NCBI RefSeq assembly: GCF_022352215.1
Contig: NZ_JAKRWF010000001.1
Location: 1-64,000 of the forward strand
Length of the DNA: 64,000 bases
From: Flavihumibacter cheonanensis
Lineage (GTDB): Bacteria > Bacteroidota > Bacteroidia > Chitinophagales > Chitinophagaceae
Reading direction: 5' to 3'
The position numbers were made by a program, and so were the translations under genes. Under the pieces are notes generated by a model that saw nothing but the letters and a program-made list of their open reading frames with translations, did not search any database and was not told the origin of the DNA. This document shows, one piece after another, positions 39,859 to 52,383 of this stretch (its first letter is position 1; the number at the start of each line of letters is the position of its first letter).

Positions 39859-39905
39859 ATTTATCAAATAGAAATTTTTCTCAAAAAAATTTCTATTTGA
39901 TAAAT
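39859..39905. promoter_or_regulatory. 19-bp perfect inverted repeat, likely operator of the S24 regulator
   Basis: ATTTATCAAATAGAAATTT (39859-39877) is followed after 9 bases by its exact reverse complement (39887-39905). It is AT-rich and ends 31 bases before the ATG of the LexA-like regulator at 39937, where a self-acting repressor would bind. A loose -7-like TATTTTCG lies at 39913-39920. Terminator use is unlikely because no T run follows on the strand of surE's neighbour, and the next gene starts downstream. Confidence 0.65.
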
Positions 39906-39936
39906 TTCTTAGTATTTTCGTACTAAATCTGTTAGC

Positions 39937-40686
39937 ATGTCATTTGCCGGAAAAAATCTAAAGCATTTACGTAAGCTGCGGGGATGGACGCAGGAAGATT
40001 TTGCTGCCAAATTGAAGATCAAGCGTTCCTTGCTGGGCGCTTATGAAGAAGAGCGGGCGGAACCCCGGCTCGAGGTGCTGGAAATGGTGAGTGAATTGTT
40101 TAAAGTGAGTCTGGATGAGCTTTTCCTGAAGGATCTTTCTGAAACCAAGGGCAGTTATATTGCGAAACGCCGTGCACAAAAGCTGGCTGCTGAGCCTACT
40201 GTTATTCAGTATGTGCCTATGAAAGCTGCTGCCGGTTATTTGAATGGCTATGCAGATCCGGAGTTCATTGATGAGTTGAATACCTTCACCCTGCCCATGC
40301 TGGCCCCAGGTTCTTACCGGGCTTTTGAAATCGTTGGGGATTCCATGTTGCCAACGCCCAGTGGTTCCATTATTGTGGGGGAAAAGGTGGAAGACACGGA
40401 GAATCTTAAATCCAGCAATACGTATATCGTGGTTTCCCGCCAGGAAGGAATTGTTTACAAACGCATCATGAAAAATGGGCGGTCTAAACAGAAACTTACC
40501 CTGGTTAGTGATAACCCGGTTTACCAGCCTTACCAGATCGATGCCAATGATGTGCTGGAAATCTGGCAGGCACAGATGGTAATTACCCGGGCCAACCAGC
40601 AACAGCGCTGGGATGTGGATCAATTGGCTTCGATTGTTTCCAATTTGCACGACCAGGTTAATTCCCTGAAGAAAAAAATGAATTAG
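39937..40686 (+). CDS. XRE-family regulator with LexA/CI-type S24 peptidase domain
   Basis: The N-terminal 60 residues form an XRE helix-turn-helix (LKHLRKLRGWTQEDFAAKL, KRSLLGAYEEERAEP). The C-terminal half is an S24 self-cleaving domain: a potential Ala-Gly cleavage site at residues 99-100 (KAAAGYL), the Ser nucleophile at 136 (IVGDSMLPT) and the Lys at 175 (GIVYKRI). The Ser-Lys and site-Ser distances are close to those of LexA. A C-terminal coiled extension (LASIVSNLHDQVNSLKKKMN) may aid dimerisation. It may be a DNA-damage or stress repressor; HDAC, pdeM and the repair genes follow downstream on the other strand. A terminator lies after its stop. Confidence 0.88.
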   Translation: MSFAGKNLKHLRKLRGWTQEDFAAKLKIKRSLLGAYEEERAEPRLEVLEMVSELFKVSLDELFLKDLSETKGSYIAKRRAQKLAAEPTVIQYVPMKAAAGYLNGYADPEFIDELNTFTLPMLAPGSYRAFEIVGDSMLPTPSGSIIVGEKVEDTENLKSSNTYIVVSRQEGIVYKRIMKNGRSKQKLTLVSDNPVYQPYQIDANDVLEIWQAQMVITRANQQQRWDVDQLASIVSNLHDQVNSLKKKMN

Positions 40687-40735: not shown

Positions 40736-40766
40736 AAGGCCCCGTTTTTACGGGGCTTTCTTTTTT
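40736..40766 (+). terminator. Rho-independent terminator after the S24 regulator
   Basis: A GC-rich stem AAGGCCCCGT / ACGGGGCTTT with a four-T loop is followed by CTTTTTT. It ends at the stop codon of the convergent HDAC-like gene (40766). Confidence 0.85.
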
Positions 40767-41677
40767 CAGTAAATACTAAAAGCTTCTTTGAAGGTATTGC
40801 AATGCGCTTCTACTATATCCCGGATATCCGGAGAATAACCCCCACCCATGGAAACGGCACAGGGTATACCTGCTTTTTTGAGCGTACTGAATACCATTCG
40901 GTCTCTTTCGCGGCAACCTGCTTTGCTTACTTTCAGTTTACCAAACTTGTCGGTTTCCAGGATGTCCACTCCTGAAATGAAAAAGGCAAAATCTGGTTGC
41001 GCTTTTTCCAGCAATAGGGGCAGGTGCTTTGCTAATAACTCCAGGTAGGCGTCGGTGGTGGTTCCATCTTCCAGCGGAACATCCAGGTCTGATTGCTCTT
41101 TGTGAAAGGGATAATTATGCCGGCCATGCATGCTGAAGGTGAATACCTTCGGATTGTGCTCAAATAGTTTGGCAGTTCCATTGCCCTGGTGCACATCCAG
41201 GTCAATAACAATTGCCTGTTTAATTGTTCCTTCTTCCAGCAATACATTGGCTGCTACAGCCACATCGTTCAACAGGCAAAAGCCTTCGCCTCTGTCGGCA
41301 AATGCATGATGGGTTCCCCCCGCTACATTCAGCGCTACTCCATGCTGGAGGGCATGCCTGGCACAATCAATCGTGCCCTGGGTGATGATGAATTCCCGCT
41401 TGGTCAGGGCCTCCGATTGAGGAAATCCAATATGACGCTGCTCTTTGGCTGAGAGTGTCTGTTCCAGGAGCTTCTGCACATAATCGGCATCATGAGTTTT
41501 CAGTACCAATTCCGTGGGGCAGCTGGCAGGAGACACCAGTGCTTCTTCAGTGATTATTCCTTCATAGAGTAACTGCTCAGGTATCAGTTCATATTTCAAC
41601 ATGGGGAACCTATGTCCGGGTGGTAAGGGGTGGGCATAGATCGGATCAAATGCTATAAATCGATTGCTGGCCTTCAT
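40766..41677 (-). CDS. Histone-deacetylase-fold (acetoin utilisation/HDAC-like) hydrolase
   Basis: The 303-residue protein carries the zinc-hydrolase blocks of arginase/deacetylase fold HDACs: NVAGGTHHAFADRGEGFCLLND with the His pair, DLDVHQGNGTA with the Asp and His zinc ligands, SGVDILETDKFGKL with the third Asp, and MGGGYSPD near the end. It would remove acyl groups from lysines, polyamines or similar amides; the substrate is not known. Its ATG overlaps the stop of pdeM by 4 bp (41674-41677), so both are translated together. Confidence 0.9.
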   Translation of the reverse strand: MKASNRFIAFDPIYAHPLPPGHRFPMLKYELIPEQLLYEGIITEEALVSPASCPTELVLKTHDADYVQKLLEQTLSAKEQRHIGFPQSEALTKREFIITQGTIDCARHALQHGVALNVAGGTHHAFADRGEGFCLLNDVAVAANVLLEEGTIKQAIVIDLDVHQGNGTAKLFEHNPKVFTFSMHGRHNYPFHKEQSDLDVPLEDGTTTDAYLELLAKHLPLLLEKAQPDFAFFISGVDILETDKFGKLKVSKAGCRERDRMVFSTLKKAGIPCAVSMGGGYSPDIRDIVEAHCNTFKEAFSIY

Positions 41678-42333
41678 TGTATGGGGATGATTTCCTGTCC
41701 GGCTATAGCAAATACCGATGCCCCTGCTTCAGGAGAAACCAATGCCAACCCGGAAAATCCACTGAATGCCGGCAGGATCGCTTTTGCTTTGCCGAAATAG
41801 AAACAGGGAAGGCGAAGCGATTGTTTACCAGAACCACTTAACAGCACACCCGGATGCAGGTGACCTGAAAAAGTATAGGTATCGTTTTCTGCTTCCGGTA
41901 ATTCTTCCGGGTCATGAACAAATCGGAAAGGGCCCCTGGCATACATTCCCTGCTGCACATGAATGGCCTGTTCCTCATACCAGGATGCCTGTAAAATATC
42001 GTGATTGCCTCTTACCAGGGTAATGGCCAGATCAGCATGATCCTTTCTCCAGCGTGCAAACCAGTCCGATTCCAGGTTATAACTGCTGTGAAAGAAATCA
42101 CCTACAATAATGAGTTCTTTCGGTTTATAATACTGAACCAGGTGAAAGAGGCGCTGCAGATCCTGTTTGAATACTTCCTGTGGTACTCCGATGCCGGACT
42201 TTCTGAAATGGCCGGTTTTGCCGAAATGCAGATCCGAGAGGATCAGGGCAGATTGATCCTCCCAATAAATCGCTTTCATGGGGGTGAGCCAGAGTTGCTG
42301 ACCGAAAAGGGTAAAAGAATGCGGCGCTTTCAT
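41674..42333 (-). CDS. pdeM: Ligase-associated DNA damage response endonuclease PdeM
   Basis: The 219-residue calcineurin-like protein has ILSDLHFGKTGHFRKSG, IVGDFFHSSYN, RGNHD and FSGHLHPG, the sequence set of the PdeM family found with bacterial ATP-dependent DNA ligase, Lhr-type helicase and beta-CASP exonuclease. It is thought to act on DNA ends or phosphodiesters in repair. It has its own TAGCTTTG promoter element at 42341-42348 and is followed by the overlapping HDAC-like gene; the other ligase-associated genes are in a separate minus-strand run at 42880-49394. Confidence 0.93.
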   Translation of the reverse strand: MKAPHSFTLFGQQLWLTPMKAIYWEDQSALILSDLHFGKTGHFRKSGIGVPQEVFKQDLQRLFHLVQYYKPKELIIVGDFFHSSYNLESDWFARWRKDHADLAITLVRGNHDILQASWYEEQAIHVQQGMYARGPFRFVHDPEELPEAENDTYTFSGHLHPGVLLSGSGKQSLRLPCFYFGKAKAILPAFSGFSGLALVSPEAGASVFAIAGQEIIPIQ

Positions 42334-42340
42334 CGGAGGG

Positions 42341-42348
42341 CAAAGCTA
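42341..42348 (-). promoter_or_regulatory. Bacteroidota -7 element (TAGCTTTG) for pdeM
   Basis: TAGCTTTG on the minus strand matches TAnnTTTG exactly and ends 7 bases before the ATG at 42333. No -33 TTTG at usual spacing. Confidence 0.45.
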
Positions 42349-42390
42349 AATGCTTTATTTTTAAGAATTCCTAAATCAAATCACCTCATT

Positions 42391-42879
42391 ATGAACGTCC
42401 TGAATCCATTCGAACAAGAGCAGAAAAAGCTGCCCACCATGTTGAATGTACTGACCATTCTGACATTTATTGGCTCGGCAATTCAGCTTTTTTCTATCCC
42501 ACTTTCCAAGTTTGGAATGAAATTCGCAAAACAAGCATTAGAAAACCCGGATGCGTTAGAAAAGATGAGTGAAAAAGAAGTGGCGGATCTTGAAAAAAGT
42601 GTACGTGTATTTGATTTGATGGAGTCCAATGCTACGCTTATTTGGATTATCACAATTGCCAGTGCGGCGCTTTGTATTTATGGTGCTATCCAAATGAGAA
42701 AATTTAAAAAGGATGGATTTTTTATGTATGTAATCGGTGAGATATTACCCATCATTGCACTCACCATCATACTTGGATTTTCCAATCTATTTATTGGAGG
42801 TAGCAGTTATATCTCGAACCTGGGTGTACCACTGCTCATGATCATTTTATACGCAACCCAGCTCAAACATTTAAAATAA
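42391..42879 (+). CDS. Four-helix membrane protein of unknown function between repair genes
   Basis: The 162-residue product has about four membrane helices (MLNVLTILTFIGSAIQLFSI, TLIWIITIASAALCIYGAIQ, FFMYVIGEILPIIALTIILG, GVPLLMIILYAT) with a charged loop between the first two (EKMSEKEVADLEKSVRV). No known domain. ATG 42391 is chosen: the frame is open from 42001 but that part overlaps pdeM and lacks signal-like sequence. It is oriented opposite to pdeM and ends 1 bp before the stop of the helicase gene. Confidence 0.7.
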   Translation: MNVLNPFEQEQKKLPTMLNVLTILTFIGSAIQLFSIPLSKFGMKFAKQALENPDALEKMSEKEVADLEKSVRVFDLMESNATLIWIITIASAALCIYGAIQMRKFKKDGFFMYVIGEILPIIALTIILGFSNLFIGGSSYISNLGVPLLMIILYATQLKHLK

Positions 42880-45354
42880 TTATTTCAGCAATTGCAACTG
42901 CATTTTACGCACCCGGTCTTCCAGGGTTTCGGAGGATAACTGTTCCCGCTTACTGTCTACTTTAATCGGGAAACAGAAAGGAGTGAGTTTCTCCGGAAAC
43001 CGCAAAATGATCCGGCTTTGCTGAATGCGTTCGAGCATATTGCGTAAGCGGGTTTCTTCCATCTGCTGATCAAATACTTCCTGGTAGGCCTGCCGCATTA
43101 AGAGATTATCCGGCTCGTATTCCTGGAATACTTTAAATAAGAGCGAGGCACTTGCCTGTAAGTGTCTCGCTTTTTTATGTTCACCCGGATAACCCTGGAA
43201 CAATAAGCCACCGATCACCGCGATATCCCTGAATTTTCGTTTAGCCATCTCCGTACTGTTCACACTTCGCTGGATATCGGCAAACAGATTTTCCGTACTG
43301 AAGAGCTCATACACGTTGGTATCATCCACCGGTATGGGCTGGTCACTCAGTAATTCAAATCCATAATCATTCATCGCAAAGGAAAAGCTGATGGGCTGGA
43401 TTTTACTGATGCGGTATGCCAGGATGGCTGCCATCGCTTCATGTACCAGCCGGCCTTCAAAGGGATAGACGTACAAATGAAATCCATCTTTGGTTTCTAT
43501 CTGTTCAATCAGCAATTCATTTTCTTCCGGTACCTGGCTGAGTTGATTCTGCAATTCAAATAAGGGAGCCAGTGCATACATTTCGATATTATCCGGTCCC
43601 GCTTTTCCGGCTTCGTTTAAGGTTTGCCGTAAGAGCTGTCCCAGGTTGGCAGACAAGGGCATACGCCCACCCATCCAGCTTGGTACAATTGATTTTTTAC
43701 TGGTTGATTTTCGTACTAATACGGTCATGTCTTTGATCATTACCAGCTCCAGGTTTCTTCCCGCCAGGGTAAAGACTTCTCCCGGTTCCAGTTTGGAGAT
43801 AAACCATTCTTCAATCACACCAATATATCCACCCGATACAAATTTGACCTTCAGCATGGCATCACTTACAATAGTCCCAATATGCATGCGATGCCGCATG
43901 GCTACTCTTCTGCTTGTAATGCGATACAGCCCATCGATCAATTCTACTTTTTTATATTCATCGTACTGCTGTAAGGCCTGTCCGCCATGCACCAAAAACT
44001 GCAATACCTGCTGCCATTCCGCTTTTGTCATCTCCCTGAAACAGAAGGTAGATTTCACTTCATGATATGCCTGTTCTGAAGTAAATCCTTCCGATATAGC
44101 CAGTGTGCTGAGGTATTGAATCAGCACATCATAACATAACAGGAAGGGTTCCCTGGATTCAATCAGTTGCTTGTCCATGGCGGCTTTCAATGCGGCAGCT
44201 TCTACCAGTTCCAGTGAATGGGTGGGAAGGAAATAAATTCTGCTTACCGCCCCCGGCTGGTGACCGCTTCTTCCGGCTCTTTGTAAAAAGCGCGCGACTC
44301 CTTTTGGCGAGCCAACCTGTATAACAGTCTCGACTGGCCGAAAATCAACACCCAAATCCAGGCTCGCTGTACAGACCACACATTTCAATGTACCCGCATG
44401 TAATGCGTCTTCCACCCAGATCCGCAATTCCTGCTCAATACTTCCATGGTGTAAGGCGATGGCACCCGCCAGGTGTGGTGCCACATCCAGAATGGTCTGG
44501 TACCAGCGTTCACTCATTCCCCTGGTATTGATAAAGAGCAGGGTAGTGGTGCTCGCTTCAATGATGGGAATAATTTTTTCTACCAGCTTTAATCCCAGGT
44601 GACCGGCCCATGGATATTTTTCAATTTCATCCGGCAGGATGGAAATAAGTTCTGTTTGTTTAGGAAGGGTCGCCCGTACTATCCTTCCTTCCTCCTGCAG
44701 CGGCGATAACAATACCTCCATTGCCTGTTCCAGGTTACCGATGGTGGCGGATATACCAATAATGGAAAAACTTAGCTCAGGTTCTTGCTCTTTTCTTAGT
44801 GCCGCTATTCTGCACATGGCCAGTTCCACCAGCACCCCCCGCTTGCTGCCAATCAGTTCATGCCATTCATCTACAGCAACGAGCCGGAGTGAGTTGAAAA
44901 AATCCGGATAGCCTTTCTGTGCCAGCACCAGGTGCAGGCTCTCCGGTGTGATGATCAGTATTTCCGGTGATTTTCTTTTTTGTTTCTGTCGTTCACTGGT
45001 TGGAGTATCCCCATTTCGTATACCCACGGTCCAGGGAATGCCTAAAGCTAGTAATGCTTCCTCCATAGCGCGACCGATATCTTTGGCGAGTGCTCTCAGA
45101 GGAGAGATCCATAAGAGTTGCAGCGCCTGTGGTCGTTTGCTTCTAAAGGTATCCGGATGTTCATTGATGTATTGAATAAGGGCACCTAAGAAAACCGAAA
45201 ATGTTTTTCCATATCCGGTGGGAGCATTTACCAGTCCGGAGGAACCTGACAATATCAACTGCCATGCTTCTTCCTGGTAGGCAAACGGAGTTCTGTTGTT
45301 TTCGGCTAACCAATCCCGTATGACCTGGTATCCTATCGTTTGCCGGAGCTTCAA
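42880..45354 (-). CDS. Ligase-associated DEXH-box helicase (Lhr-core type)
   Basis: The 824-residue protein has motif I NAPTGYGKTFS, motif II as VAVDEWHELIGSKRG, SATIGNL, and VI as QRAGRSGHQPG, followed by the winged-helix and Lhr-type beta-barrel domains (RTGYIGVIEEWFI region). It belongs to the helicases that travel with the repair ligase and PdeM. No ATG is available before the conserved core; TTG at 45354 is the only plausible start, 3 bp past the cytochrome stop (45358), pointing to coupled translation. It is likely part of one operon with exonuclease, ligase and cytochrome genes. Confidence 0.9.
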   Translation of the reverse strand: MKLRQTIGYQVIRDWLAENNRTPFAYQEEAWQLILSGSSGLVNAPTGYGKTFSVFLGALIQYINEHPDTFRSKRPQALQLLWISPLRALAKDIGRAMEEALLALGIPWTVGIRNGDTPTSERQKQKRKSPEILIITPESLHLVLAQKGYPDFFNSLRLVAVDEWHELIGSKRGVLVELAMCRIAALRKEQEPELSFSIIGISATIGNLEQAMEVLLSPLQEEGRIVRATLPKQTELISILPDEIEKYPWAGHLGLKLVEKIIPIIEASTTTLLFINTRGMSERWYQTILDVAPHLAGAIALHHGSIEQELRIWVEDALHAGTLKCVVCTASLDLGVDFRPVETVIQVGSPKGVARFLQRAGRSGHQPGAVSRIYFLPTHSLELVEAAALKAAMDKQLIESREPFLLCYDVLIQYLSTLAISEGFTSEQAYHEVKSTFCFREMTKAEWQQVLQFLVHGGQALQQYDEYKKVELIDGLYRITSRRVAMRHRMHIGTIVSDAMLKVKFVSGGYIGVIEEWFISKLEPGEVFTLAGRNLELVMIKDMTVLVRKSTSKKSIVPSWMGGRMPLSANLGQLLRQTLNEAGKAGPDNIEMYALAPLFELQNQLSQVPEENELLIEQIETKDGFHLYVYPFEGRLVHEAMAAILAYRISKIQPISFSFAMNDYGFELLSDQPIPVDDTNVYELFSTENLFADIQRSVNSTEMAKRKFRDIAVIGGLLFQGYPGEHKKARHLQASASLLFKVFQEYEPDNLLMRQAYQEVFDQQMEETRLRNMLERIQQSRIILRFPEKLTPFCFPIKVDSKREQLSSETLEDRVRKMQLQLLK

Positions 45355-45357
45355 TAC

Positions 45358-46749
45358 TTAGATGGTTTTGAGATACTCCAGCAACGCCTTGCGTTCTGTG
45401 TCTGTTAGTTTATCGCCAAAATAATGGCCATAGTTACCATACCCTTTGAGCGTGGTGTTATAAATCTGGCTGCCTCCCGGTTTATCAACTACCTTGTACT
45501 CCCAACTCATGCTCTCGATATCATAGCGGGGCTTGTCAAAATTGCGTTGCCAGTAGGTAGGCCGGATTTTACTATTCAATACGGCTTCCAGGGTTGGTAC
45601 GGAACCATTGTGCAAATAAGGGGCAGTGCTCCAGATTCCATCCAGCGGTGGTGCAATGTATCCATTAAAAGGCACCAGGCTTGCCGGATGATCCCCTTGA
45701 GAAAACCAACTTTTATTGAACCAATTTACAAACTGCGGATTCTGATAGTTGCTTTGGTACAAGGCCGAATCGGTTTTAATAATCGAAGCGGGAATCAATA
45801 AGTTCGGATATTCTTCTTCGTTACCATATTTTCCGTGGCATTTGGAACAGTTATCAATAAAGAGAATGCGCCCTTTTTCTGCCAATGCCTTATCCACTTT
45901 GCCAGGATAAACAGGTGGTCGCAGGTTGTTGATATAGGCGAGTACATCACTGATGCGTTTATCCACTTCCGCTGCTTCAGAAGAATCGGTTACGGTTAGC
46001 AGGTTGGAGGCCATTAGAAATCTTCCAAAATCACCGCGACCGAATCCATTGTAGAACATGGCATTCTTTTTCCGGAGCAACCACCAGGCAGGTACATCAC
46101 TGGGAATTACTTCTTTCGGAATCTCCATATAAGCAGAGTCGGACCATTTCAGTGTATTGGGATCGCGATGCGCCACCAATACTGCTGCCAGCCGGTCTGC
46201 AGCATTCACTCCTCGTACAGCTGTTGTCAAATAGGGGCCAATGGTGCCTGCTACCTGCAGGAAATGTTTGCTTGCTTCGTATTTTGCGGGAGCGTTAGCT
46301 TTCATCAAGGTGCCCATCATCTTGATGGCAGCAGGATTCAGTTGTTGTCCCATGGAAAAATCAATCAGGGTATTGCCCATACCTACAATCAAAGAATCAT
46401 TGAATACCTGCGCATGGCATTGCATACAGTTGGGAGCCACCAGGTTTTCTCCATTCACTGCTTTTACCACGGTGTAATCATGCGGTACAGTTGCATTGAG
46501 TCCGGTTCTTTTCAGAAAATTCTGCTGCTCCTTGCCTTTGCCCATCAAGAAAAAATCATAGGGAATTCCTCCCTTGACATAATCTCCGGTGGTCAGGTAG
46601 TCAAATCCTTTGGCAGCATCACCGCTTCGTTGTTTGGAAGGAGGAATTGGCACCGGTTTATCCGGATTCAGCGCGGTTGTATGGCTGGTTAGCAACACCA
46701 CGCCACTGCCGGCTAAGAGCACCAGTAATAAAAAGATTCGGGTAAGCAT
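45358..46749 (-). CDS. Di-haem c-type cytochrome, RoxA/MauG-like region, within the repair operon
   Basis: An N-terminal signal/anchor (RIFLLLVLLAGSGVVLL) precedes two haem-binding motifs, CMQCH (residues 108-112) and CSKCH (near residue 300), with a C-terminal WSTAPYLHNGSVPTL block as in RoxA and MauG/di-haem peroxidase proteins. It would act in the periplasm. It lies between ligase (46796) and helicase (45354), with 46 bp before and 3 bp after, on the same strand, although its compartment differs from that of the repair enzymes. Its role here is unknown; redox sensing or co-transcription without a link are both possible. Confidence 0.85.
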   Translation of the reverse strand: MLTRIFLLLVLLAGSGVVLLTSHTTALNPDKPVPIPPSKQRSGDAAKGFDYLTTGDYVKGGIPYDFFLMGKGKEQQNFLKRTGLNATVPHDYTVVKAVNGENLVAPNCMQCHAQVFNDSLIVGMGNTLIDFSMGQQLNPAAIKMMGTLMKANAPAKYEASKHFLQVAGTIGPYLTTAVRGVNAADRLAAVLVAHRDPNTLKWSDSAYMEIPKEVIPSDVPAWWLLRKKNAMFYNGFGRGDFGRFLMASNLLTVTDSSEAAEVDKRISDVLAYINNLRPPVYPGKVDKALAEKGRILFIDNCSKCHGKYGNEEEYPNLLIPASIIKTDSALYQSNYQNPQFVNWFNKSWFSQGDHPASLVPFNGYIAPPLDGIWSTAPYLHNGSVPTLEAVLNSKIRPTYWQRNFDKPRYDIESMSWEYKVVDKPGGSQIYNTTLKGYGNYGHYFGDKLTDTERKALLEYLKTI

Positions 46750-46795
46750 AACACTGTATTGATCTTAATCTAACAAATTTCTTGTTCCCACGGTT

Positions 46796-48433
46796 CTAAT
46801 CTGCTTTTTCATTGCCAAATTGTTGCAATAATTGCTGCAGATCCTCCAGCGTGTTGATATCCTGCACGGTTTTATCTTTTCTCCAGCGCAGGATTCGGGG
46901 GAAACGAAGTGCCACTCCACTTTTATGCCGGGAAGAAGCTGCAATTCCTTCAAAAGCGATCTCAAAAACCAGTTCGGCTGGCACAGTTCGAACGGGACCA
47001 AATTTCTCCAGTGCATTGCGTTTCACAAATGCATCCACTTCCAGCAGTTCCTTATCCGTGAGTCCTGAATACGCTTTGGTGAATGCCAGCAGTTTATCAT
47101 CCTTTCGAACTGCAAAAGTGTAATCGGTATAGAGGTTGCTTCTGCGCCCATGGCCTTTTTGCGCATAAATCAGAACGGCATCAATGGTCATGGGATCTGT
47201 TTTCCATTTCCACCAGTCGCCCCGCTTCCTGCCTACCTGGTATACCGAGTCTTTTTTCTTCAGCATAATGCCTTCTGCTACAAATTCTCTGGATCGGCTC
47301 CTGAGTTCCGCAAGCTCTTCCCAGGTATCAAAGTTTACACTGGGAGAGAGTAGCAGCTTCGGGTGCTGAACCTGTGCTACCAGCGCTTCTAATTTAGTTC
47401 TTCTTTGTTGCAGGGGCTGATCCCGCCAGTCGGTTCCTTCCCATTCCAATAAATCATAGGCGAAAAAATGAATGGGTGCAGCTTCCAGTTGTTTTTTGGT
47501 AATATTTTTTCGGCCAATCCGGGTTTGTAAGAGTGCAAAGGGCATCGGTTTCCCCTCCATAAAGGGCAGGATTTCACCATCCAAAACCAACCCATCTGGT
47601 AAGGTATTCAGTAAACCCTGATACTCCGGAAACTTCTCAGTTATCAATTCTTCTCCCCGGCTCCAGACAAAGAGCTCGCCGTTGCGCTTGATTAATTGTC
47701 CGCGTATACCATCCCATTTCCACTCTGCCTGCCATTCGGCCGGATTCCCTAGCGCTTCCAATTCCCCTTCTACCGGATAACACAAATAAAAAGGATAGGG
47801 CTTGGAGAAATCGGTGGCTGCATAACTGCTGGACAGCAATTGTTGTAAACTCGTCTGGCGCGGATCCCACTGACCGCTAATCAGATAGGCTATCTGGCTT
47901 TGTTCCAGATTAACCAGTTTGGCAAGTGCCTGCACCAATAATTGTTGTGATACCCCAATTCGAAATCCTCCGGTTATTAGCTTATTGAACACAAATCGTT
48001 CTTCGCGATTCAGCTCATCCCAGGCATGCAGTACAAATGATTTTTTTGCTTCTACTTCCTGGTCGCTGAGCGCTTGCAATGCCTCCAGGTAGGTCTGGAG
48101 GGAATGACTGGATTCATTGGTCGGTGGTGGCAATAATAATGCAATGGTTTCAGCGAGATCCCCTACGGTATGATAGGATTCTTCAAACAGCCAGGCAGAT
48201 AAACCGGTTTGTTCAATGCACCATTCTCTCAGATAGGTACTGCTGACTGTTCTTTTAGGCCGCCTTCCGGTAAAGAGTGCGATCACCCAAATGGTATCAG
48301 CTTCCGGTGCAGTTTCAAAATAACTTAGCAGGGCTGCCAGCTTATCATTGGTTTTGGTACTGGAACCTAGTTGCTTCACCAGTTCGGCAAACAGGCGCAT
48401 GCCAGTATTGCTATTCCTGTTCTTCGGTTCCAT
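46796..48433 (-). CDS. Ligase-associated ATP-dependent DNA ligase
   Basis: The 545-residue protein has an N-terminal helical DNA-binding domain, a nucleotidyl-transferase domain with the adenylated Lys239 in EWKWDGIRGQ, further motifs VLDGEILPF and EGIMLKKKDSVY, and a C-terminal OB fold ending at RFPRILRWRKDK. Bacterial ligases of this type occur with pdeM, helicase and exonuclease genes and act in damage repair. The start at ATG 48433 overlaps the exonuclease gene by 23 bp; ATG 48400 (MRLFAELVKQ) is an alternative. Confidence 0.93.
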   Translation of the reverse strand: MEPKNRNSNTGMRLFAELVKQLGSSTKTNDKLAALLSYFETAPEADTIWVIALFTGRRPKRTVSSTYLREWCIEQTGLSAWLFEESYHTVGDLAETIALLLPPPTNESSHSLQTYLEALQALSDQEVEAKKSFVLHAWDELNREERFVFNKLITGGFRIGVSQQLLVQALAKLVNLEQSQIAYLISGQWDPRQTSLQQLLSSSYAATDFSKPYPFYLCYPVEGELEALGNPAEWQAEWKWDGIRGQLIKRNGELFVWSRGEELITEKFPEYQGLLNTLPDGLVLDGEILPFMEGKPMPFALLQTRIGRKNITKKQLEAAPIHFFAYDLLEWEGTDWRDQPLQQRRTKLEALVAQVQHPKLLLSPSVNFDTWEELAELRSRSREFVAEGIMLKKKDSVYQVGRKRGDWWKWKTDPMTIDAVLIYAQKGHGRRSNLYTDYTFAVRKDDKLLAFTKAYSGLTDKELLEVDAFVKRNALEKFGPVRTVPAELVFEIAFEGIAASSRHKSGVALRFPRILRWRKDKTVQDINTLEDLQQLLQQFGNEKAD

Positions 48434-49394
48434 AAGCTGTTTGAATTTCTTTGGCTTCGATTCCCTGCTCTGTTAAATACCGCGAAAAAGCTGCCTGGAA
48501 TCCATGGGTTACATATACAGAGGAAGCCCCGGTTGCTTTGACAGCAGTTATCAATCCATTCCAGTCGGCATGATCACTTAACACGAATCCGGCATCCACA
48601 TTTCTTCTGCGGGCATTGCCTCTAACCTGCATCCAGCCACTGCAAACAGCTACTTTAACCGGACCGAATTTCTTCAGCCAACTACTGCCATCTGCACTGG
48701 GTGGTGCTACTACTATTGATCCCTTCAGTTGATTTCGGTTAGGCTCCACCGGTACCCTTACTACCGGTGTTAATTTCCATCCGGAGTCTATCAATTTTTC
48801 CTGCACATTAGCAATGGCACCATGAGCATAAATGGGTTGTTGCAAGGGAGCCAGGCAACTGATCAAGCGTTGTGCTTTTCCCAGGCTATAGGCAAGTAAT
48901 ACAGAACTATATCCTGCTGTCTGGTTATCCAACACCCATTGCCTGATTTGCTGGTATATAATTTCCTGGTCTTCCCATTGGTAGATGGGCAATCCAAATG
49001 TAGATTCGGTTATAAAATGATGACAGGCTACCGGTTCGAAATCACCACTGATGCCATCTGACACTACTTTATAATCTCCACTTACTACCCAAACTTCTCC
49101 TTTGTATTCTACCCGAACCTGGGAGGAGCCGATGATATGTCCGGCTGGATGCAGACTTACCCTAACACCATTGATATCTAACTGCTCTCCCCAGTCCTGT
49201 GATTGTACTTCAACCGGACCCAGTCTCAATTGCAGGAGAGGTGCAGTATCCGGGTGACAGAGATATTGTTTACTTCCCCAGCGCGCGTGATCACTATGGG
49301 CATGTGTGATTACAGCCTTCTCCACAGGTTTCCAGGGATCGATATAAAATCCACCTTGGGAGCAATAGATACCTGATGGAGTAAAGCTTAGCAA
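48411..49394 (-). CDS. Ligase-associated MBL-fold beta-CASP exonuclease
   Basis: The 327-residue protein begins with LSFTPSGIYC, YIDPWKPVEKAVITHAHSDHARWG and continues with HPAGHIIGSSQVRVEY and VLSDHADWNGLI, the metallo-beta-lactamase and beta-CASP blocks of the repair exonuclease associated with bacterial ligase. A TTG start at 49394 is required because an in-frame stop lies 15 bases upstream of it and no ATG lies before the conserved start. It leads the ligase gene with a 23-bp overlap. Confidence 0.92.
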   Translation of the reverse strand: MLSFTPSGIYCSQGGFYIDPWKPVEKAVITHAHSDHARWGSKQYLCHPDTAPLLQLRLGPVEVQSQDWGEQLDINGVRVSLHPAGHIIGSSQVRVEYKGEVWVVSGDYKVVSDGISGDFEPVACHHFITESTFGLPIYQWEDQEIIYQQIRQWVLDNQTAGYSSVLLAYSLGKAQRLISCLAPLQQPIYAHGAIANVQEKLIDSGWKLTPVVRVPVEPNRNQLKGSIVVAPPSADGSSWLKKFGPVKVAVCSGWMQVRGNARRRNVDAGFVLSDHADWNGLITAVKATGASSVYVTHGFQAAFSRYLTEQGIEAKEIQTAYGTEEQE

Positions 49395-49401
49395 TGGAAG
49401 T

Positions 49402-49429
49402 ATGAATTATGAATTGTGAATTATGAATT
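49402..49429. repeat. Heptamer tandem repeat, four units of ATGAATT type
   Basis: ATGAATT, ATGAATT, GTGAATT, ATGAATT run without a break. The tract covers the end of the DUF2256 gene, whose stop codon (49421-49423) is inside it, and ends 8 bp before the exonuclease TTG start. Confidence 0.75.
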
Positions 49430-49564
49430 GCGGGAGCGGCGGCAGCGTTCACTGCAATACTTGACTTCTTCCCAAACCGCGGCCCATTTTTTTCTCCAGG
49501 AAAAGGGACGATTACAGGTAACGCAAATCTTCTGTGGCAGATTGGCTTTTTTGACTTGCTTCAT
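49421..49564 (-). CDS. DUF2256 zinc-ribbon-like small protein
   Basis: The 47-residue protein has [18 protein letters not shown] then [12 protein letters not shown]; the Cys-x2-Cys and Cys-x3-Cys pairs fit a zinc-binding fold of the DUF2256 family. Members are often found next to photolyases; here it stands at the head of the repair operon, 26 bp upstream of the exonuclease. The start is ATG 49564. Its last two residues and stop come from the repeat tract. Confidence 0.8.
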
Positions 49565-49616: not shown

Positions 49617-50828
49617 TTAATTCACAGTGGTGATCGTACCATTCAGGAGTTTGACCACATACATTTTTTTGTTTTCGAAATAATCCAGTTGTTGTTCCTG
49701 CTTATTGAGTAATACAGGCTGGATATCAAAATCAGTGAATACCTGGTATTTTTTTTCTCCGAGTCCCAGTGCAAGATTAGGTCCCTGGTCAGCTACCATT
49801 TTTCCAAAGCGATACATCACCTCATATCCTCTGAATACCATATCACTGGGACGTGCAAATAATTTGTCGCGGAAATAATTGGTGATGGAGACACTCAAAG
49901 AATCCGTCCGAACAGGATTGAACGGAATAGTATAAAAGATTTCGAGGTCTTTGTATTCATCGCTTTCAAAATCCCGGATACCATCCCAGGTGGGCATGCC
50001 CATAATCTGAACAGGGTAGGTCTTATTGAGTTCTGCTAAATGGCCAGCGAGTTTGCGGGCAAACTGCACATCCAGGCTACCGGCTACTGCCAGTGTACTT
50101 TTGGTACTATCCAGGTAGGGAAGCAAATTAGCTGCTTCAAAATCTGTTGGAAGTGTTACGTATTTCAGTTTTAACTGGGCGCCTGGTTTGGATTTCTCCA
50201 CATCATTCAGGTATCCTTTTAAGCGGGTTTCTTGTGCACCGTTTCGGGTGAATACAATGATGGAGGCCTGGTTTCTTTTTTTCTCGAGGTATTCATAAAT
50301 ACCCTGCGCATGGGTAGCAAGTGTACTGTTCAGAATTACCATGTAAGGATTGTTCGTGATGCCTGCATCATTGGGCAGGTTTACATTCACAAATGGCACC
50401 TGCTTTTTATTCGCAAAATCAGCCCAGGGCCTTACTTCATTATTGCCGATATGTCCAACCAGCAGATTGGCATTCTGAACTGCCGGATCCTGCATTAAGG
50501 TCTGCAGGTTTCTGTTCGAACGGGTATCAATCACGTTCACATCCAGCTCCACTTTTTCCTTATTAAGGGAATCAATGGCGAGCTGAACTCCTTCGTAGAA
50601 TTCAAGTCCGGGTAAAAAATAACGAGGAAACTGTTTCCCAAAGCGATATTGCCCTCCTGCATCAAAAGCGGAATCGAGGTACAGCGGTAGCAGGAAAGTT
50701 ACTACCTGCTTTTTTTTAGTTAGTTGTTGTGGCAGCGTTACCAGTGCACTGTCCTGGGCTAATACCGGGACAATCAATGAACTTATCAAAACAACCGTAA
50801 GAAAAAAGAGCCTGCTGTAGTTGCGCAT
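49617..50828 (-). CDS. Periplasmic type-I binding-fold protein (Leu/Ile/Val-binding-like)
   Basis: A signal peptide (TVVLISSLIVPVLA) leads 380 residues of a two-lobed binding fold (LLPLYLDSAF, GVQLAIDSLNKEKVELDVNVIDT, LVGHIGNNEVRP, VPFVNVNLPND). No partner permease or ATPase gene is nearby, so in this organism it may serve as a ligand sensor or cell-wall/lipid-linked binding protein. It is on the same strand as guaA (19 bp downstream of it) and may be in its transcript. Confidence 0.7.
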   Translation of the reverse strand: MRNYSRLFFLTVVLISSLIVPVLAQDSALVTLPQQLTKKKQVVTFLLPLYLDSAFDAGGQYRFGKQFPRYFLPGLEFYEGVQLAIDSLNKEKVELDVNVIDTRSNRNLQTLMQDPAVQNANLLVGHIGNNEVRPWADFANKKQVPFVNVNLPNDAGITNNPYMVILNSTLATHAQGIYEYLEKKRNQASIIVFTRNGAQETRLKGYLNDVEKSKPGAQLKLKYVTLPTDFEAANLLPYLDSTKSTLAVAGSLDVQFARKLAGHLAELNKTYPVQIMGMPTWDGIRDFESDEYKDLEIFYTIPFNPVRTDSLSVSITNYFRDKLFARPSDMVFRGYEVMYRFGKMVADQGPNLALGLGEKKYQVFTDFDIQPVLLNKQEQQLDYFENKKMYVVKLLNGTITTVN

Positions 50829-50847: not shown

Positions 50848-52383
50848 TTATTCCCATTCGATGGTAGCTGGTGGTTTACTGCTTATATCGTATACCACCC
50901 GGTTGATACCCCGAACGTTGTTGATTATATCACTCGAAATATGTGCCAGAAAATCATAGGGCAGATGAGCCCAGTCGGCAGTCATTCCATCTACGGAAGT
51001 TACTGCTCTGAGCGCAACGGTATATTCATAGGTTCTTTCATCGCCCATAACTCCTACACTCTTTACCGGCAGCAGGATGGCGCCTGCCTGCCATACTGAT
51101 TTATATAAGTTGTGTTCTTTGAGTCCGGAGATGTATCGGTGATCAGCTTCCTGCAGCAGTTTAACTTTTTCTTCTGTTATTTCACCGAGGATACGTATAG
51201 CCAGTCCGGGGCCCGGGAAAGGATGACGATCAATTAATTCGTCCGGAATTCCCAGCTCACGGCCTACTTTTCTAACTTCATCCTTGAAAAGATAGCGCAG
51301 CGGTTCTACCAGCTCCAGGTGCATCTGCTCCGGCAATCCACCCACATTGTGATGAGATTTGATTGTTACAGAAGGACCGTGCACGGAAACACTTTCAATC
51401 ACATCCGGATAAATCGTTCCCTGTCCCAACAATTCAATGCCTTCTACTTTTTTGGCTTCTTCCTGGAAAACATCAATGAATAATTTTCCGATGACTTTTC
51501 TTTTGGCTTCCGGGTCGGTTTTGCCGGCCAGTTCTGAGTAGAAGCGATCTTTAGCATCCACCCCTTTTACATTGAGGTGCAAATTGTCTTTATAGGTTTT
51601 TAATACCTGCTCAAATTCTCCTTTTCTGAGTACTCCGTTGTCCACAAAAATACCGTAGAGCCGGTCGCCAATAGCTTTTGAAATAAGAGTTGCAGCCACG
51701 GTACTATCCACCCCACCACTGAGTGCCATGATCACTTTACGATCACCTATTTGCTTTTGCAGGGCAGCAACTGTATCAGAGATAAAATGGGCTGGTGTCC
51801 AATCCTGCGAGCAACCACATACTTCCACCAGGAAGTTGCGGATCAGTTTTTTCCCTTCAATGCTGTGGTACACTTCGGGATGGAATTGTACGGCGTATAA
51901 AATTTCTTTATCGTCTATTTTGCGAAATGCTGCAATGGGGATGGATTGCGTATCAGCCAGCAGTTCAAATCCGGCAGGGATTTCTTTCACGCTGTCTGCG
52001 TGACTCATCCATACCTGGCTCTGTTTGGACATGCCTTCGAAAATCCGGTCTTCTTTCAGGATTTGAAGGATGGCCCGACCATATTCGCGCTTGCTGCTTT
52101 TTTCTACCCTGCCTCCAAATTTTTTGGCTGTCAGCTGGGCACCATAACATACACCCAAAACAGGAAGGCGGGAAATCATGGACTGAATATCCACATCCGG
52201 GGCGTTTTCATCATTTACAGAAAAAGGAGATCCTGAAAGGATAATCCCTTTTAAACCTGGTTCATATTCGAAGGCTTTGTGATAGGGAATGATTTCACAA
52301 TATACATTGGCCTCCCGTACAGCCCTGGCAATCAACTGAGTATATTGAGAGCCAAAATCGAGGATGAGAATTTTTTCAGTCAT
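50848..52383 (-). CDS. guaA: GMP synthase (glutamine-hydrolysing)
   Basis: The 511-residue protein has the glutamine amidotransferase triad (LGVCYGAQ Cys, VQFHPEV His/Glu), the ATP-pyrophosphatase P-loop ([15 protein letters not shown]) and the C-terminal dimerisation domain ending PATIEWE. It makes GMP from XMP. A -7-like TAACTTCG is 7 bases before its ATG. It leads a minus-strand run of genes reaching through the binding protein towards the repair genes. Confidence 0.97.

Follow-up and report, generated by a model that had tools for sequence, protein, structure and literature searches.

We analyzed the first 64,000 nucleotides of contig NZ_JAKRWF010000001.1 of Flavihumibacter cheonanensis (Bacteroidota; Chitinophagaceae; RefSeq assembly GCF_022352215.1, positions 1 to 64,000 of the forward strand), hereafter the window. 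Here, four genes of the ligase-associated DNA damage response cassette—i.e. an exonuclease, an ATP-dependent DNA ligase, an Lhr-type helicase, and the endonuclease PdeM—lie together with genes for a histone deacetylase (HDAC)-fold enzyme, a di-haem cytochrome, a small zinc-finger protein (DUF2256), and a LexA-type regulator. The four-gene cassette is already known, and the locus is its Chitinophagaceae form. In this form HDAC directly follows pdeM; we find that this pairing is real at the level of the family and withstands rearrangement, but is not obligatory. The features of the locus are as follows:

50848-52383, minus strand: guaA, 19 bp beyond the ABP gene.
49617-50828, minus strand: periplasmic-binding-like gene (ABP), 52 bp upstream of DUF2256.
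49421-49564, minus strand: DUF2256 mini-protein of 47 aa (PF10013, 80.8 bits, the 40-residue domain matched over its full length).
48411-49394, minus strand: exonuclease Xnuc_lig_assoc, a cassette gene (TIGR04122, 472.7 bits, cut-off 325).
46796-48433, minus strand: ATP-dependent DNA ligase, a cassette gene (TIGR04120, 645.8 bits, cut-off 400).
45358-46749, minus strand: di-haem cytochrome of the RoxA-like kind (RoxA-like_Cyt-c, PF21419, 82.7 bits vs 26.7).
42880-45354, minus strand: Lhr-type DEXH helicase, a cassette gene (TIGR04121, 1078.6 bits, cut-off 850; WH_Lhr and DEAD_assoc domains).
42391-42879, plus strand: small membrane-type protein without a Pfam match, its ATG at about 42391, between helicase and pdeM.
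41674-42333, minus strand: PdeM (MPE endonuclease), a cassette gene and first of the pdeM-HDAC pair (TIGR04123, 211.9 bits, cut-off 150).
40766-41677, minus strand: apparent class IV enzyme of the HDAC fold that carries clade A signatures (PF00850, 190.1 bits).
39937-40686, plus strand: LexA of the non-canonical Bacteroidetes kind (HTH_3, 50.8 bits; Peptidase_S24, 33.4 bits).
39922-39936 (exact) and 39899-39913 (one mismatch), plus strand: tandem SOS boxes of the LexA gene, from a motif scan.

All genes named in an earlier note on this DNA lie where it placed them and belong to the families it gave, as the profile scores bear out, and its reading of the ligase, helicase, PdeM, and exonuclease as a recognized repair set stands, all four window proteins scoring above the curated NCBIfam cut-offs (TIGR04120-04123). 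The cassette genes cluster at 41674-49394 on one strand, with a single opposite-strand gene between helicase and pdeM. DUF2256 and the exonuclease gene are 26 bp apart, exonuclease and ligase overlap by 23 bp, 46 bp separate ligase from cytochrome and 3 bp cytochrome from helicase, while pdeM and HDAC overlap by 4 bp. DUF2256 does not head this run, as had been proposed, because the ABP gene and guaA continue it upstream on the same strand. A weak stem-loop lies between ABP and DUF2256, at a junction that a single transcript may or may not cross.

The likeness to the ligase-associated cassette extends to all four families and to the order exonuclease-ligase-helicase-pdeM. The locus differs in the cytochrome gene between ligase and helicase, in the opposite-strand gene before pdeM, and in the HDAC gene appended to pdeM. 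A cluster of Lhr-Core, exonuclease, MPE, and ligase genes is reportedly present in Pseudomonas putida. In 276 of 319 genomes MPE has been found close to bacterial lhr (PMC8301817), and a gene table in PMC12654122 lists members of the set in Paracoccus.

For comparison, 117 Chitinophagaceae genomes were searched for the helicase, HDAC, DUF2256, PdeM, the cytochrome, the LexA-like regulator, the ligase, and FAD_binding_7, and 198 genomes of the phylum, 190 of them outside the family, for the helicase and HDAC. Helicase surroundings were read in 127 stretches, 81 of them in family genomes and 46 in others, and a scan of named genomes provided the best 80 of 580 confirmed HDAC loci. Among the listed matches, the helicase occurs in 83 family genomes, i.e. 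79 over the cut-off and 4 fragmentary or split copies below it that were added by hand (G025, G033, G048, and G059), with weaker rows of about 240 bits and below, from other helicases, dropped. The counts for PdeM (84 genomes) and ligase (56 genomes) each take in one genome below the cut-off.

An HDAC of the window kind is found in 44 of the 117 family genomes. Where both genes are present (41 genomes), HDAC directly follows pdeM within 500 bp and on the same strand in 33, and four of those 33 (G058, G070, G071, and G080) keep the two genes together at a distance from the helicase, with order and strand confirmed when the loci were read. The pair is also kept though inverted relative to the helicase in L013 and L038. 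In the helicase clade to which the window belongs (61 rows, SH-aLRT 99), 32 rows have the pair, 4 an unlinked HDAC, and 25 no HDAC.

Such linkage could also arise from a conserved chromosomal block without functional coupling, in which guaA, ABP, the cassette, HDAC, LexA, surE, and lpxB stay together by descent while HDAC and the cytochrome are freely lost passengers. By clustering, such neighbors are indeed kept around the helicase in the 81 family loci (guaA in 31, ABP in 35, LexA in 39, surE in 20, and lpxB in 15). On the helicase tree, presence changes state at least 18 times for HDAC, 17 for the cytochrome, 18 for the ligase, and 12 for DUF2256, counts that do not separate gain from loss and that come from a quickly built tree in which 27 of the 84 inner branches are open and the outgroup rows do not form one side. 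Furthermore, in L209 (Sediminibacterium magnilacihabitans) HDAC stays in place between ABP and LexA, although the 16.9 kb stretch showed no exonuclease, ligase, helicase, or PdeM. The gene order there is guaA-ABP-HDAC-LexA-surE. Descent as a block does not, however, lead one to expect a pair that is intact where pdeM has left the helicase or been inverted, nor that so few of the family genomes with HDAC (3 of 44) should have no PdeM, and we regard this explanation as rather unlikely.

Several observations nevertheless weigh against a functional link between the two genes. Synteny alone proves little, because guaA, surE, and lpxB, which have no repair role, are conserved here too, and the L209 locus shows HDAC in place where no cassette gene was detected. 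In addition, 43 of the 84 PdeM-bearing family genomes are without this HDAC, and 8 family genomes hold both genes unlinked, besides the 3 that hold HDAC without PdeM. In the phylum at large, HDAC is frequent and in most cases unlinked: outside the family it occurs in 70 of 190 genomes, 34 of which also have the helicase, and it lies nearby in 2 of these 34. Around free-standing HDACs (25 loci, about 1.5 kb of flank), the recurrent neighbors, apart from HDAC itself, form just clusters of 2-3 loci.

Of the best 80 named HDAC loci, 21 reach 64% identity or more, and these include every one of the 15 in which pdeM immediately precedes HDAC. In the 59 below 64% pdeM is never adjacent, although a Pedobacter locus (L271) has it at a distance of about 4 kb. 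The titles of 14 of the 15 paired loci name Chitinophagaceae or its genera, and the fifteenth (L227) says just Bacteroidetes. The nearest named relative in this set is a Flavipsychrobacter metagenome-assembled genome (L208), at 92% in HDAC.

Phylum-wide co-occurrence of HDAC and helicase was also considered as evidence and rejected. Over the 190 non-family genomes the association appears strong (34 with both, 36 with HDAC only, 12 with helicase only, and 108 with neither; P = 5e-9), but nothing is left of it inside either of the two families tested (f22, P = 0.60; f5, P = 1.0). The corresponding counts within the Chitinophagaceae (42, 2, 41, and 32; P = 1.9e-6) ignore descent and may be inflated likewise.

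The pair is probably a transcription unit separate from the helicase run, because the plus-strand open reading frame at 42391-42879 splits helicase from pdeM. Just before pdeM lies a TAnnTTTG element, which we take to be the Bacteroidetes -7 box; it is found in the window and in 4 distinct relatives, read in 5 stretches of which two (L036 and L208) are one genome. A scan for sigma-70-type promoters was uninformative (16 found vs 20.1 expected by shuffling). The LexA-like gene is tail-to-tail with HDAC, with no common promoter. Family loci repeatedly carry, between helicase and pdeM and on the other strand, a gene for a membrane-type protein without a Pfam match; by clustering, the window gene is common to 10 of the 81.

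The HDAC itself has 9RJE as its best solved match (E = 7e-69), followed by 9GKV and 9GZ5. In PMC13325672, 9RJE is a clade A structure and 9RJD (the same sequence as 9GZ5) a clade B structure, and clade A is marked by Arg replacing Pro in HPFD, Gly replacing Glu94, and a Thr/Ser foot gatekeeper. The window protein carries all three signatures (Arg in HRFP, Gly84, and Thr122), and its zinc ligands and catalytic residues (His123, His124, Asp161, His163, Asp238, and Tyr281) are invariant in 9 of 9 aligned rows. Signatures and pairwise scores thus point to a class IV (HDAC11 family) enzyme of clade A type, alike in its intact active site and best match. A literature search returned no paper joining "ligase-associated DNA damage" with "histone deacetylase", and the accessible parts of PMC13325672 and PMC11532494, searched for operon, neighborhood, and DNA-repair terms, gave no passage that ties HDAC to pdeM or to the repair cassette.

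We lean, by a modest degree, toward reading the locus as the known cassette in its Chitinophagaceae form, with HDAC as the second gene of a pdeM-HDAC unit that supports PdeM. A class IV clade-A-type HDAC-fold hydrolase would have become the second gene of this transcription unit in the Chitinophagaceae, where the two genes may be co-transcribed and translationally coupled. From the linkage and the conserved active site we infer that HDAC could support PdeM function in one of two ways, either by deacylating PdeM or another cassette protein, or by hydrolyzing a non-peptide acyl-amide compound that arises under the same stress. The second option would fit this HDAC better because of its clade A signature. 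Either way HDAC would be an optional accessory, because about half of the PdeM-bearing family genomes are without it.

A partly overlapping explanation has HDAC acting on a small-molecule or cell-envelope metabolite, co-expressed with pdeM as a stress gene and with no DNA mechanism. Clade A enzymes are described in PMC13325672 as inactive on acyl-peptides, with non-peptide substrates suggested, and HDAC is free-standing in other Bacteroidota; both observations suit a metabolic role, which alone does not account for HDAC staying beside pdeM after rearrangement. We see this explanation as possible, if doubtful. A more specific proposal, in which pdeM and HDAC form a working unit and the substrate of the clade A deacylase is either PdeM or an acylated product that stems from nucleic acid damage, seems to us improbable.

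The earlier note had gone further, proposing one larger damage-response system that takes in HDAC, the cytochrome, and DUF2256 and is possibly controlled by the LexA-like regulator next door. The regulator, judged by its sequence, is the known Bacteroidetes LexA-type SOS repressor. A LexA of Bacteroidetes that recognizes CTAA-N5-TTAG is described in PMC8565304, and we find no difference from it, with HTH_3 and S24 domains and a box in its own promoter and before SOS genes. Specifically, RCTAA-N5-TTAGY occurs exactly before 41 of 48 LexA orthologues and with at most one mismatch before 46, often in tandem, compared with 0 and 1 for the reversed control. The window genome has 13 such sites, each listed on both strands (54 for the reversed pattern), and the other 12 were read in 11 stretches. 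Four precede genes of SOS type: one for a DnaE-type polymerase (DNA polymerase III alpha type), recA, an S24 (UmuD-like) plus IMS (UmuC-like) pair, and an RNase_T/GIY-YIG gene, the last counting as upstream if that gene begins at an internal ATG. A second site in the polymerase stretch is inside that gene, and five more are inside open frames (L288 and L294-L297) and may be chance. The remaining two are exact boxes about 10 bp before a 92-aa open reading frame without a Pfam match (L293:861-1139, minus strand) and about 40 bp before one of 176 aa (L298:485-1015, minus strand), possible new SOS genes.

By contrast, exact boxes are nearly absent before genes of the cassette locus: DUF2256 0/6, exonuclease 1/41, ligase 0/48, cytochrome 0/26, helicase 0/90, pdeM 0/76, and HDAC 1/108, counts that pool family and named loci, with some genomes entered twice (e.g. 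L036 and L208) and loci outside the family among the 108 HDAC rows. The window holds 5 motif matches with at most one mismatch vs 6.7 expected. One of them (42345-42359) overlaps the promoter-like TAnnTTTG element of pdeM, and across pdeM upstream regions such sites number 5/76 vs 2/76 for the reversed motif. LexA control of the cassette is thus rejected, the boxes being nearly absent and the one-mismatch site of pdeM coinciding with a promoter-like element; adjacency to LexA here does not imply LexA control. An exact box lies before surE in 9 of 28 loci, surE being divergent from lexA in the window. Exact boxes are also seen before guaA in 5 of 39 loci (L042, L068, L211, L215, and L216; reversed control 0), and upstream of guaA a gene of one neighbor cluster (cluster 8) often sits on the opposite strand.

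The idea of a single LexA-controlled system draws on the compact, co-directional genes and on the true LexA-type repressor that adjoins them. It is set against the near-absence of SOS boxes before the cassette genes, the probable separateness of the pdeM-HDAC unit, the many state changes of HDAC, cytochrome, and ligase on the helicase tree, and the tendency of DUF2256 to follow photolyase-type genes. Among the 46 cassette loci outside the family, moreover, HDAC is near the cassette in 2 (L106 and L107), a cytochrome of the window type in none, and DUF2256 in 2, where it lies 6 kb away on the opposite strand. Close relatives lacking DUF2256 are found, and those lacking HDAC or the cytochrome in part; for example, the same-genus genome G108 has HDAC and cytochrome, with no match for DUF2256 or ligase. 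We consider a single system of this kind very improbable. HDAC keeps its persistent link to pdeM inside the family, and the cytochrome a looser one to helicase or ligase, neither as part of one larger system.

As a cassette partner, DUF2256 is rejected: it occurs in 33 of the 117 family genomes, lies at the cassette in 7 of these 33, and tracks photolyase-type genes genome-wide. Its presence is not associated with the helicase (P = 0.37), ligase (P = 0.15), PdeM (P = 0.50), HDAC (P = 0.14), or cytochrome (P = 0.64), whereas three photolyase-type classes combined occur in 28 of the 33 DUF2256 genomes vs 3 of the 84 without it (P = 1e-18). These P values ignore common descent, and the classes were sorted by eye from bit scores, post hoc. 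The large group of ordinary photolyases, which score about 230 bits or higher and end near position 156, was left out, as were two G095 fragment rows. Each of the 7 genomes in which DUF2256 lies at the cassette, including the window genome, carries the shorter photolyase-like protein elsewhere. DUF2256 lies within 4 kb of a photolyase-type gene in 12 of 33 genomes; at the 23 of 26 non-cassette loci that were read (stretches of 1.8-3.1 kb), a photolyase-type gene is present in 10, and a photolyase-type, SDR, DUF2805, DUF2071, or flavin reductase gene in 17. In the Chitinophagaceae, DUF2256 is more often beside such genes than beside a repair ligase cassette as here, and we judge DUF2256 to be a photolyase-associated gene that lies at the cassette in a minority of relatives. 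DUF2256 and LexA would be mere neighbors of the cassette, belonging to the photolyase-type genes and the SOS regulon, respectively. PF10013 is described in PMC4047054 as a member of a TRASH-like metal-binding superfamily.

The di-haem cytochrome is a loosely linked accessory to the cassette. It is present in 31 of the 117 family genomes, 24 of which have it near helicase or ligase and 7 near neither. Specifically, among the 29 genomes with helicase and cytochrome, 21 have the two within 9 kb, and among the 17 with ligase and cytochrome, 13 have them within 500 bp of each other. Where ligase and helicase are apart, the cytochrome accompanies the ligase in three genomes (G029, G038, and G077) and the helicase in one (G068); where the ligase is absent, it is near the helicase in 9 genomes. 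G029 gives weak evidence for linkage to the ligase, because the whole side from guaA through ABP, exonuclease, and ligase to the cytochrome stayed together there.

The domain match (PF21419) and two CXXCH motifs (CMQCH at 108 and CSKCH at 301) liken this protein to RoxA-like cytochromes. It scores below the cut-off for a di-haem cytochrome c peroxidase (NF040606, 122.4 bits, cut-off 150) and far below the cut-offs for the rubber dioxygenases RoxA/B/C. The N-terminus is hydrophobic and signal-like, and c-type haem is attached in the periplasm; the cytochrome is probably periplasmic, and direct action on DNA is unlikely because of this N-terminus, the CXXCH motifs, and the site of haem attachment. 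It may be a second, weaker accessory of the cassette, perhaps handling peroxide. Other haem proteins appear at family loci. A small Haem_bd (PF14376) gene lies between helicase and pdeM in 5 of them (L019, L030, L044, L046, and L062; a cluster of 6). Among unassigned open reading frames, CXXCH motifs are present in 6 of 46 inside the cassette (five from the Haem_bd cluster and one other in L038) vs 7 of 716 outside.

The cassette itself divides into a stable helicase-PdeM core and a losable exonuclease-ligase module, because of the co-occurrence counts and the ligase state changes, with the exonuclease side judged from the loci read around helicases. Helicase and PdeM occur together in 81 of the 117 family genomes, with helicase only in 2 and PdeM only in 3, and PdeM lies within 9 kb of the helicase in 62 of the 81. 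The ligase is present in 56 of the 83 helicase genomes and never without the helicase. Some genomes hold additional or displaced copies. For example, G111 has three cassette-type helicase genes (L032, L069, and L070), two of them in divergent cassette copies with about 26-37% identity to the window proteins and with ligase and exonuclease on the opposite strand. A second PdeM-like gene in G103 (G103:C15:264087-265599; 118.6 bits, cut-off 150) is tail-to-tail with LexA and apart from the helicase, and in G014, G068, and G113 PdeM is also tail-to-tail with LexA, away from the helicase.

These comparisons add three things. One is that the cassette is split between a helicase-PdeM core and an exonuclease-ligase module that can be lost. 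Another is the genome-wide association of DUF2256 with photolyase-type flavoproteins, which gives a lead on a domain without known function. The third is a pairing of PdeM with a class IV HDAC that is specific to this lineage and withstands rearrangement; this pairing makes the question of the natural substrate of clade A testable in culturable soil bacteria. Should pdeM and HDAC prove to be a working unit, it would be the first genetic handle on the role of this HDAC clade and would add reversible acylation to a bacterial nuclease system.

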